Below are positions 14,009 to 17,075 of a stretch of DNA of 37,421 bases, in pieces. Positions within the stretch are counted from its first letter, which is position 1. The number at the start of each line of letters is the position of its first letter. Made by a program: the position numbers and the translations under genes. The notes under the pieces are model-generated. The model saw only the letters and a program-made list of their open reading frames with translations, had not been told where the DNA came from and searched no databases. Source of the DNA: Streptomyces sp. SID4985 (GTDB taxonomy: Bacteria > Actinomycetota > Actinomycetes > Streptomycetales > Streptomycetaceae); NCBI RefSeq assembly GCF_009863025.1, contig NZ_WWIR01000163.1, forward strand, positions 1-37,421, written 5' to 3'.

Positions 14009-14662
14009 TCATCCCGGCGCGACGAACCCCGACTCGTACGCGGCGATGACCGCCTGCGTGCGGTCGCGCGCCCCGAGCTTGGCCAGCACCGCGCTCACAT
14101 GCGACTTCACCGTCTCGGCGCCGACCACCAGCCGGGCGGCGATCTCCGCGTTGGTCAGACCCCGTGCCATCAGCCGCAGCACCTCCGCCTCCCGCTCCGT
14201 CAGCCGGGCCGCCGACAGGGGATCGGAGGCGGCCCGTTCCCCGCCGTAACGCGCGGCCAACTGCCGTACGGACGCCGGGAACAGCAGCGAGTCGCCCGCC
14301 GCGACCAGCCGTATCGCGTGCGCGATCTCCTCCGGACGGGCCCGCTTCAGCAGAAAGCCGTCCGCGCCCGCGCGCAGCGCCTCGTAGACGTACTCGTCCT
14401 CCTCGAAGGTCGTCACCACGACGATCTTGGGCGGATCGGTCACCGTACGCAGCACCGCGCGGGTGGCCTCGATGCCGTCGAGGAGGGGCATCCGCACGTC
14501 CATCGCCACGACGTCCGGCCGGAGTTGGCGCACCAGCGGGATGACGGCCGCACCGTCGGCGGCCTCGCCGACCACCTCGATGTCGGGCTGGGCGTCGAGC
14601 ACGGCCCGCAGACCGGCGCGGACCAGGGGTTCGTCGTCGACGAGCAGTACGGTGACCGGCAT
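14009..14662 (-). CDS. NarL/LuxR-type response regulator
   Basis: 217 residues. Receiver domain: acidic pair D9-D10, phospho-acceptor Asp55 (VVAMDVRMP), Thr84/85 and Lys106. C-terminal LuxR helix-turn-helix at about 148-205 (LTEREAEVLRLMARGLTNAEIAARL). Its partner is the histidine kinase ending at 14892, upstream on the same strand, but 229 bases separate them and 169 of these are a palindromic element. Only nine native bases remain between that element and the ATG, so there is no normal ribosome-binding site; the best match is AGG formed at the element's CTAG edge. Expected target: the ABC-2 exporter divergent from the kinase. Confidence 0.94.
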   Translation of the reverse strand: MPVTVLLVDDEPLVRAGLRAVLDAQPDIEVVGEAADGAAVIPLVRQLRPDVVAMDVRMPLLDGIEATRAVLRTVTDPPKIVVVTTFEEDEYVYEALRAGADGFLLKRARPEEIAHAIRLVAAGDSLLFPASVRQLAARYGGERAASDPLSAARLTEREAEVLRLMARGLTNAEIAARLVVGAETVKSHVSAVLAKLGARDRTQAVIAAYESGFVAPG

Positions 14663-14671
14663 CCGGCCAGC

Positions 14672-14840
14672 CTAGTGCCGCAACAGGCAACGTTCGCCCC
14701 GTCGCGACGCCCGGCACGCACTCTCGCCGCACCGGCCGAAAGCCCGAGTACGCCCAGTACGAGGGCTTCCGGCCGGCACGCCGAGAGCACGCACCGGACA
14801 CCGCTCCTTGACGGGCAAACGTTGCCTGCCGCGGCACTAG
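14672..14840. mobile_element. 169-bp palindromic MITE-like element
   Basis: The ends are near-perfect inverted repeats: the left 28 bases, starting CTAGTGCCGCAACAGGCAAC, match the reverse complement of the right end at about 25 of 28 positions. The inner part continues as one long imperfect palindrome, with CCGGCCGAAAGCCCGAGTAC facing GTACGAGGGCTTCCGGCCGG at the centre. There is no open frame of its own. Both edges are CTAG. A small, non-coding, terminally repeated element is by definition MITE-like; insertion at CTAG with TA duplication would fit an IS630/Tc1-type transposase acting in trans (inference). It lies between the kinase and regulator genes of a two-component system. Confidence 0.75.
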
Positions 14841-14891
14841 ATCAGTACGGACCGCCGTCGTCACCGGTGGAGCCGTCGCCCCCACCTCGCC

Positions 14892-16046
14892 TCAGCCGAG
14901 CGGGAGTTCCGCCCGTACCCGCCACTCGCCCTCGTCCGGCCCCGTCAGGGCGCTGCCGCCGAGCAGCGCCGCCCGCTCGCGGATGCCGCGCAGTCCGCTG
15001 CCGCCACGGCTCTCGGCGAGTCCCGCCGGGAGGGGATTGCGTATCTCCAGCGTGAGCCCTTGCCCGGCGACGGCCACCCGGACCCGCACGGGGACCGGGC
15101 CCGCGTGCCGCAGGACGTTGGTCAGCGCCTCCTGGAGGATGCGGTAACCCTCACGGGACACCGGCCCCGGCACCGCCTCCACCGGGCCCGTCACCTCGGA
15201 GTCCACCTTGGCGCCCGAGGCCCGCGCCGACTCCAGCAGCCTGCCCGCGTCCGTCAGCGTGGGGCGCGCGCCCACCGGCCGCTCCGTCTCGCGCAACACC
15301 CCGAGCACCCGCTCCAGGTCTTCCAGGGCGGCCCGGCCGGTCTCCTCGATGGCGGTCAGCGCCCGTCCGGTGAACTCCGCGTCGCCCGCCGCCCGTGCGG
15401 CGCCCGCCTGGATCACGGCCACGGTCAGCGCGTGCCCGATCGAGTCGTGCAACTCCCGGGCGATCCGGGTCCGTTCGAGCAGCAGCTCGGTGCGCTCCTC
15501 CAGCGCGGCCAGGCGTTCGGCGGCCGAAGGACCGAGCAACTGCCGTGCGCACACCGTGACGAGCGTGCCGAGCCCGACCACCGTGCCGTACAGCGCGAGC
15601 AGCGGAAGCGGGGCCAGCAGCGCGTACGCCGGGTGCGGCGGCAGCCGGTCCAGGAGAGGGACACCCGAAGACGGCTTGCCCCAGGCGTACTTGACGAGAT
15701 CGAAGGTCAGCGTCGGCAGCCATACGCAGGCGAACGTCGCGGCCGCCCCGAGGCCCATCCGCACCTCCAGCCACAGCACGGTGCGCCACCGGTCCCGCCA
15801 GGAGGCCGCCGGGACCGCGGAGATGCCCGGTTCCTTCTCGCCGGGCGTCAGCAGCAGCCGCGCCTGCACGCCCTCGCCCATCCGCACCCCGGCCACGAGA
15901 CCGGCCGGTGCGATCAGGAGCGCGGGTATCCAGGGCGTACCGGGGCTGATGAAGAGCCAGACGCTGACGATCAGCATCGGCACCCACAGATGCACCAGGC
16001 GTGTGTACGTCGTCCCGCGCAGCAGCGGGCGCAGGAAGCGGACCAT
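14892..16046 (-). CDS. NarL-type sensor histidine kinase
   Basis: 384 residues from ATG 16046. Four hydrophobic segments (about 18-33, 36-53, 95-115, 140-166) form an intramembrane-sensing N-terminus with no large outer domain. The HisKA_3 dimerisation helix carries phospho-acceptor His200 (IARELHDSIGHAL), and the ATPase domain has the N-box EALTNVLRHAG and G-box GSGLRGIRERAALLGG. Such kinases often sit next to ABC exporters and respond to cell-envelope stress or a transported compound. The ABC pair here is divergent across 108 bases. Longer in-frame starts reach far upstream but would overlap the ABC gene. Confidence 0.93.
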   Translation of the reverse strand: MVRFLRPLLRGTTYTRLVHLWVPMLIVSVWLFISPGTPWIPALLIAPAGLVAGVRMGEGVQARLLLTPGEKEPGISAVPAASWRDRWRTVLWLEVRMGLGAAATFACVWLPTLTFDLVKYAWGKPSSGVPLLDRLPPHPAYALLAPLPLLALYGTVVGLGTLVTVCARQLLGPSAAERLAALEERTELLLERTRIARELHDSIGHALTVAVIQAGAARAAGDAEFTGRALTAIEETGRAALEDLERVLGVLRETERPVGARPTLTDAGRLLESARASGAKVDSEVTGPVEAVPGPVSREGYRILQEALTNVLRHAGPVPVRVRVAVAGQGLTLEIRNPLPAGLAESRGGSGLRGIRERAALLGGSALTGPDEGEWRVRAELPLG

Positions 16047-16078
16047 GGAGCCATCGTCGCAGGCCGCACCGGTGGCCG

Positions 16079-16122
16079 ACCTCCCCCGCACGGGGGAGCG
16101 GATCCCCACGCCAGGGGGAGGT
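16079..16122. promoter_or_regulatory. Nested inverted repeats between kinase and ABC exporter
   Basis: ACCTCCCCC (16079-16087) pairs perfectly with GGGGGAGGT (16114-16122). Inside it CTCCCCC (16081-16087) also pairs with GGGGGAG (16092-16098). Thus three copies of the same C-run/G-run half-site lie in the short divergent region. This is a likely binding site for the NarL-type regulator of this module, though a pure secondary-structure role is possible. Confidence 0.5.
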
Positions 16123-16154
16123 GCCGGGGCGCGCGTCCGGCGAGGCTCGTTGCC

Positions 16155-17075
16155 ATGACCAGCATCGAACTGCGCGACCTCACCAAGGAGTACGGCGGCA
16201 GACGCGCCGTCGACGGACTGACCCTCACCGTGCGCCCCGGCCGCGTCACCGGCTTCCTCGGCCCCAACGGCGCGGGCAAGTCCACCACCATGCGGCTCGT
16301 CCTCGGCCTCGACCGCCCCACCTCCGGCACCGCCACCCTCGACGGCCGCCCCTACGACCAACTCACCGAGCCACTGCGCCGGGTGGGCTCCCTGCTGGAC
16401 GCCCGCGCCGCCCACGGCGCCCGCACGGCCTACGACCACCTCAGGGTCCTCGCGGCGGCCAACCGCATCCCCGTGGCGCGGGTCGGCACCGTCCTGGAGC
16501 GGACCGGGCTCGCCTCCGTGGCCCGGCGCCGGGTGCGGACCTTCTCCCTCGGGATGCGCCAGCGGCTCGGCATCGCCGCCGCGCTGCTCGGCGACCCGGG
16601 GGTGATCCTGCTCGACGAACCCGCCAACGGGCTCGACCCCGAGGGCATCGTCTGGGTCCGCTCGCTGCTGCGCGAACTGGCCGCCGAGGGCCGTACCGTC
16701 CTGGTGTCCAGCCATCTCATGGGCGAGACGGCCGTGTTCGCGGACCATCTGGTGATCCTCGGCCGGGGCCGCCTCCTCGCGGATACCTCGGTACGGGAGT
16801 TCATCGACGCCCGGGTGCGTCCCCGGGTACGGGTGCGCACCGCCGACGCCGACGCCCTCGGCGCGCTGCTCCTGCGTCACGGCCACGAGGCAGAGCGGGA
16901 CGCGGACGGCGCCTGGACCGTACGGCAGGCCCACGCCGAGGAGTTGGGGCGACTGATGTCCGAGGCGGGGCTGCCCGTCCTCGAACTCGCCGCCCAGGAA
17001 GCCAGCTTGGAAGAGGCGTACTTCGACCTCACGGCCACCGAGGCCGAGTTCACCGCACAGCCCCAGGAGGTCTGA
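16155..17075 (+). CDS. ABC transporter ATP-binding protein (DrrA/ABC-2 type)
   Basis: 306 residues. Walker A GPNGAGKST (36-44), signature FSLGMRQRLG (130-139), Walker B ILLDEPANGLDP (151-162) and switch His in VSSHLMGE. The C-terminal extension (about 215-306) is usual in exporter ATPases of the DrrA/BcrA group. The stop is two bases before the permease start, so the two are co-translated. Together with the divergent kinase and the regulator beyond it, this makes a two-component-system/exporter module of the kind used for drug or peptide resistance. Confidence 0.94.
   Translation: MTSIELRDLTKEYGGRRAVDGLTLTVRPGRVTGFLGPNGAGKSTTMRLVLGLDRPTSGTATLDGRPYDQLTEPLRRVGSLLDARAAHGARTAYDHLRVLAAANRIPVARVGTVLERTGLASVARRRVRTFSLGMRQRLGIAAALLGDPGVILLDEPANGLDPEGIVWVRSLLRELAAEGRTVLVSSHLMGETAVFADHLVILGRGRLLADTSVREFIDARVRPRVRVRTADADALGALLLRHGHEAERDADGAWTVRQAHAEELGRLMSEAGLPVLELAAQEASLEEAYFDLTATEAEFTAQPQEV

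Follow-up and report, generated by a model that had tools for sequence, protein, structure and literature searches.

The window analysed here, a 37,421-nucleotide stretch of DNA from Streptomyces sp. SID4985, carries a two-component gene pair on its minus strand, with a histidine kinase (HisKA_3; 14892–16190, start approximate) upstream and a response regulator (Response_reg and GerE; 14009–14662) downstream. Between the two lies a 169-bp palindrome (14672–14840, minus strand), now confirmed as a MITE, which only the nine bases 14663–14671 separate from the regulator ATG. The original prediction of a palindromic MITE-like element with CTAG ends and inner symmetry, set between a histidine kinase and a NarL-type regulator nine bases from the regulator start, is thus borne out. 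The minus strand is both the well-folding RNA strand of the element and the mRNA strand of the kinase and regulator. The element is bounded by 28-bp terminal inverted repeats of the IS630 type (end class A below; 14672–14699, plus, and 14813–14840, minus) that are 89% complementary and include a copy of the CTAG target at each extremity (14672–14675 and 14837–14840), where empty sites have a single CTAG. Its interior holds a conserved 102-nt hairpin core common to elements with other ends (14703–14804, minus), whose apical loop (14752–14756, minus) is flanked by GUAC on either side, and an AAGGA bulge in the 5' arm of the RNA between end and core (14805–14809, minus).

The palindrome is far beyond chance, with a DNA fold z-score of -8.71 against shuffles and RNA fold z-scores of -14.82 (minus) and -10.45 (plus), 0 of 200 shuffles being as good on either strand. 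A point absent from the original prediction is that the minus strand folds to -147.1 kcal/mol as RNA, against -109.8 kcal/mol for the plus strand. As expected of a MITE, the element is short and apparently non-coding, has terminal inverted repeats and dispersed copies, and shows a target duplication together with an empty site; whether 2 bp (TA) or 4 bp (CTAG) were duplicated is indistinguishable for it. A known Rfam family was rejected, as the Rfam 15 covariance models gave 0 matches at gathering score in the window; one match far below that score partly overlaps the element. A phage origin was likewise rejected, with no match among 50,697 phage records.

Kinase–regulator matches were found in 85 of 150 genomes (own included), and the best 30 loci were read, 29 of them besides the window. 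The two genes had been expected to lie close together normally, and they do: 24 of these 29 other loci (the best of a longer match list) have a gap of at most 15 nt, compared with 229 nt in the window. A CTAG without any insertion is present in the gap of 13 of the 29, and TCTACGC takes its place in eight. Six loci (L227, L229, L230, L232, L233 and L236) carry the exact empty site, TGATCTAGGCTGGCCGG-ATG with one CTAG, and the window junction has the same flank as these relatives with a CTAG at each side of the element. The absence of an empty site in relatives, which had been named as an outcome that would speak against mobility, therefore did not hold. The 51 nt from the kinase stop to the CTAG (14841–14891) lie outside the element and amount to about 50 nt more than most of the relatives read have there, so that the spacing was loosened by two separate changes. 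At the other side of the insertion, the 13 bases that precede the ATG (CTAGGCTGGCCGG) recur unchanged in 6 of the 29 other loci, and no Shine–Dalgarno sequence was seen by eye in the short gaps of the relatives (29 loci). Because of these two observations, the proposal that the element replaces the usual ribosome-binding site is not supported, and loss of such a site by insertion was rejected on the 29-locus comparison. At one further locus (L231, 1313–1500) a different palindrome with ends TAGGGGGTGTCTTGTCGATC occupies the same junction, and its centre resembles the core of end class H (below) by eye; the spot has thus been hit twice.

The repeat is not unique in its host genome. Four full copies with 97–100% identity and different flanks are present, accompanied by six partial matches at contig ends, as expected of an assembly broken at repeats, and by three further diverged cores (C262, C394 and C554) recovered with a core covariance model. 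Together with the empty sites, these copies support a mobile origin. The IS630-type transposase suggested by the CTAG edges also found its counterpart. On contig C450 of the same genome a broken IS630-like gene is flanked by ends that differ at 1 base over 25 from one end of the element, and intact IS630 versions with the same ends occur in relatives (L187 and L188), the L188 protein matching DDE_3 and HTH_32. Relatives of the L188-type transposase at E ≤1e-80 were found in 29 of 199 genomes (own included), the sole match of the own genome being the broken copy. Class A ends, called with at most 6 mismatches in 24 bases, accompany all 20 IS630 loci scanned (L255–L274), on both sides in 14 and nearly always after CTA. 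From these matching ends we infer that the element was moved in trans by an IS630-family transposase. The decayed IS630 copy (L058, 1842–3146, on contig C450) further contains a small 88-codon open frame ahead of the transposase.

Searches with the element matched many genomes over only its ~100 inner bases. Reading of the copies revealed one core common to different terminal repeats, a point that goes beyond the original prediction. The 102-bp core is contained in 119 collected copies (set 1), which fall into 15 terminal-repeat classes: A (22 copies), B (17), E (16), C (15), F (10), B2 (10), G (8), C3 (7), I (4), K (3), H (2), D (2), and J, L and M, each defined by its single copy. Classes were assigned by the nearest consensus at 14 of 20 bases, one assignable end being used where the other was not assignable, and no copy with two recognisably different ends was seen among the 119. 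A second set from named genomes (set 2) comprises at least 80 loci of 115 stretches found by a 23-base pattern, which biases the columns under it, and overlaps set 1 by at least one genome. Of its 81 matches in 80 loci, four are partial and were left unclassed; the other 77 were sorted into the same classes, two of them remaining unassigned. All hosts in set 2 are Streptomyces but for one Kitasatospora and an unclassified actinobacterium represented by two contigs. A further end type (GAGGAGGTTCCCGGCC...) surrounds the same core at L321 and L330 and falls outside the 15 classes.

A covariance model trained on 50 cores, run with stricter filters and with 20 candidates scored in each genome, detected the core at E ≤1e-4 in 84 of 199 genomes, 81 of which belong to the genus of the window (own included) and three to two other genera of the same order. 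In relatives the number of core matches reaches the ceiling of 20 scored candidates, and the three genomes of other genera have 22, 13 and 3 core matches at E 0.001. Twelve loci from these other genera were fetched, and nine of the ten read have IS5-like ends, mostly at CTAG. The core is also present in 30 plasmid records, 28 from Streptomyces and two from Embleya.

A third module lies in the 5' arm between end and core. As judged by motif, and hence approximately, AAGGA accompanies classes A, B and B2, a mini-hairpin stands at the same position in most of C, C3, D, E, G and I, and a GUGCGGUGC stem does so in many F and three G copies, class G being found with two module types. Palindromes of 50–79 bp with the same ends (L175–L182, L186 and L191) are missing most of the core, with varied breakpoints, and look like deletions of the element. 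Some cores or ends (L183, L184, L185, L134 and L013) contain a second palindromic repeat of ~30–45 bases, of the CTCCCCCAGCC...GGGGGGACCCCC type.

Candidate partners for several of the other ends are found among DUF4096 elements of relatives (IS4/5 family in Pfam). In L195, L198, L200, L202 and L212, which have TA or CTAG flanks, 14–17 of the outer 18 bases agree with class C3, E or G (counted by hand for L195, L200 and L202). Some seven of the 24 DUF4096 loci scanned have convincing TA- or CTAG-flanked ends, five of which resemble a MITE end class; for class B and class C, five genomes each were scanned, and no pair of ends spaced like those of an IS was seen. On a tree of 95 cores, built from 102 columns and poorly resolved at many forks, at least 31 changes of end class are needed, compared with a minimum of 14 and a mean of 68.9 for shuffled labels. 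The clearest case is genome G103, in which one class E copy (L086) and two class G copies (L087 and L088) are identical over the inner 96 nt. As a pattern in the sequences, the ends around the core thus appear to have been exchanged repeatedly, IS630-type and IS5/DUF4096-like ends both taking part, perhaps by replacement of one arm followed by arm-to-arm copying within the palindrome.

An alternative account would be an ordinary single-family MITE derived from IS630, with a functionless core that is alike by recent descent and a hairpin that is a by-product of the palindromic origin. The matching IS630 ends, the near-identical copies and the CTAG target all agree with it, and the accessible portions of two papers report that transcripts of MITEs in general form long stem-loops (PMC2229807, PMC10969869). 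However, it does not anticipate the same core with other ends, some of them IS5-like, nor the pattern of change within the core. In 50 of 50 distinct copies of the core, the RNA of one and the same strand, the minus strand of the window, has the better fold, by a mean of -32 kcal/mol. In alignment A1, from which the incomplete cores L013/L064, L045 and L053 are omitted, 97.2% of cells are paired and two-sided changes occur in 21 of 45 pairs, compared with 8.1 in shuffles, and no slid register comes close. In 7 of 50 aligned cores GUAC is changed to GUAG, creating a TAG in one frame that the window copy keeps open throughout; these changes follow the pairs. Some of this compensatory change could be mimicked by arm-to-arm copying of the palindrome.

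Across 154 distinct cores the paired cells comprise 5227 Watson–Crick, 1371 G-U, 31 A-C and 301 other combinations. At pairs that are mostly Watson–Crick, G-U and A-C appear as minority types 29 and 20 times, respectively, and among those present in at least three cores the numbers are 18 and 1, which we read as A-C changes arising but not lasting. A DNA palindrome alone would make G-U and A-C about equally frequent owing to mutation symmetry. These counts are not corrected for kinship, and since related copies share ancestry the conserved G-U pairs partly reflect inheritance. In set 2, the free columns give 202 G-U, 9 A-C and 107 other cells. The outer 15 bp of the ends, near-perfect repeats at the DNA level, show 732 Watson–Crick pairs out of 765, with 18 G-U, 5 A-C and 10 others (51 copies; set aside were 47 copies lacking recognisable TAG ends and duplicates of identical end pairs). 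Further, the strand of the model gives the better fold in all 10 diverged cores read from the three genomes outside the genus (two genera), a partly circular result as the model chose the strand. Given the compensatory changes, the lasting excess of G-U over A-C and the exchange of ends, a functionless single-family MITE seems unlikely. The covariation and the lasting departures to G-U rather than A-C indicate instead that selection maintains the core as a one-strand hairpin, most likely at the RNA level.

Selection on one strand could also act at the level of DNA. The structured strand might be active in single-stranded DNA form, for instance during extrusion or movement linked to replication, with G-T merely tolerated better than A-C. 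With DNA parameters, too, that strand is the better one in all 50 cores, and the core-deleted derivatives suggest replication-type deletions of a palindrome. Yet the advantage calculated for DNA is half that for RNA (-15 versus -32 kcal/mol), and the matched IS families move by double-strand DDE chemistry. Nor do the copies in genome G038 keep to one replication strand: the 16 listed of its 20 matches are divided 10 to 6 between the two (read by eye, taking the origin to lie mid-contig). We regard the single-stranded DNA explanation as unlikely and prefer a hairpin kept as RNA.

What such an RNA might do can be approached through the position of the copies, for which gene context was taken from a simple in-house gene caller and 23 copies of set 1 and 18 of set 2 were left out as their flanks were too short. 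The 96 remaining copies of set 1 lie between convergent genes (42), between tandem genes in antisense (23) or sense (11) orientation, between divergent genes (15), inside a called gene (4) or in an undetermined context (1). In 55 of 91 intergenic copies a gene stop lies within 20 bp of the copy edge. The convergent share (42/91) exceeds that of native intergenic CTAG sites in the same DNA (5/32, p 0.003) and that of intergenic regions (23/152, p 2e-7; Fisher tests). Among the matches listed for set 2, 28 copies are convergent, 12 tandem antisense, 11 tandem sense, 10 divergent and two inside genes, and the convergent share is 28/61 compared with 71/387 background intergenic regions. Taken together, the two sets, which overlap slightly, give 70 convergent, 25 divergent, 22 tandem sense and 35 tandem antisense copies, and the last two numbers show no preference for the sense orientation (p 0.11).

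This concentration at gene ends would suit a cis-acting regulatory hairpin, such as a terminator or mRNA stabiliser, recruited by host genes and kept by host selection, as both the proximity of gene stops and the convergent excess in both sets agree with that idea. Four observations weaken it. The sense orientation is not preferred, and a function in sense-oriented mRNA was rejected as the cause of conservation for lack of any orientation bias. The CTAG target contains a stop codon (gene stops account for 8 of 32 native intergenic CTAG sites), which itself draws insertions to gene ends and partly explains the copies there. The hairpin ends in CUAG and, by eye, is not followed by the U run of an intrinsic terminator. 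Finally, the existence of near-identical copies in separate places suggests that the element has spread recently. Recruitment by host genes is therefore a possibility to which we give rather little credit. Concentration at gene ends without a sense preference suggests that the structure probably serves the element and not its neighbours. An insulator-like role at gene ends is weakly favoured for the core, although the lack of sense bias combined with the preference for one strand fits a pure gene-end insulator poorly.

Collectively, we consider it quite probable that the element is an IS630-mobilised MITE representing one end-type of a larger family with an RNA-hairpin core and exchanged ends. 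An IS630-family transposase acting in trans would have inserted it at the CTAG between the histidine kinase and the response regulator. The 102-nt core would be kept as a one-strand hairpin, most likely of RNA, while ends are swapped around it, and copies are kept mostly at the 3' ends of genes. There the core may help the element by making insertions tolerable or even useful, acting as a hairpin of the 3'-end, RNase III or insulator type. The window copy, in sense orientation between two genes of an operon, belongs to a minority kind. RNase III prefers long double-stranded RNA, and the hairpin in the kinase–regulator mRNA could be a substrate for it while pressing against the regulator start codon. 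For cleavage or pausing between the kinase and the regulator with lowered translation of the latter we see an even chance. An uncoupling of the two protein levels, as originally proposed, is plausible, and the hairpin probably reduces the output of the regulator or sets it apart from that of the kinase.

The usual description of a MITE is of a reduced relative of a single transposon, with an interior that can decay freely. The core family reverses this picture in that the interior is conserved and the ends change. In a bolder version of our reading, to which we give slightly less than an even chance, the core itself would be the replicating unit, a selfish RNA-structured module persisting across actinomycetes by adopting the recognition ends of one unrelated transposase after another (IS630, several IS5 types and others), while its hairpin RNA would perform a task required by every vehicle. 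The family makes it possible to test whether selection acts on a mobile non-coding RNA in bacteria and, with up to 20 or more copies per genome, provides a system for studying how inverted-repeat elements change transposase, and the window locus is a natural experiment in splitting a two-component operon.

We know of no sequence relation between the core family and the Correia/NEMIS or ERIC elements. The IS630 (DDE_3) transposons at L188, L187 and C450 have nearly the same 25-bp ends and insert at CTAG, but encode a transposase, and the copies read are without the core. The IS5/DUF4096 transposons (L195, L198, L200, L202 and L212) agree with end class C3, E or G in 14–17 of 18 outer bases and have TA or CTAG flanks, but likewise encode a transposase, and their ends are only partly identical to MITE ends. 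The titles and abstract openings searched, in which subscription journals are thinly covered, yielded no description of the core family, and its sequence words were absent from the papers searched, with the same thin coverage of subscription journals. Nor is the family described in the accessible portions of PMC2229807, PMC10969869 and PMC4681348. Correia/NEMIS and ERIC are likewise MITEs whose transcripts form long hairpins; these affect neighbouring mRNA, and RNase III cuts Correia, according to the accessible text of two of these papers (PMC2229807, PMC10969869). They differ in their hosts, and that text makes no mention of end exchange around a constant core. RUP of Streptococcus pneumoniae, a 107-bp MITE thought to be moved by IS630-Spn1, resembles the element in its IS630-type ends, TA-containing target, small size and lack of coding capacity, as far as the accessible part of PMC2229807 describes it. 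However, one end type is described there for RUP, whereas the core family found here combines other ends with a structure conserved on one strand.
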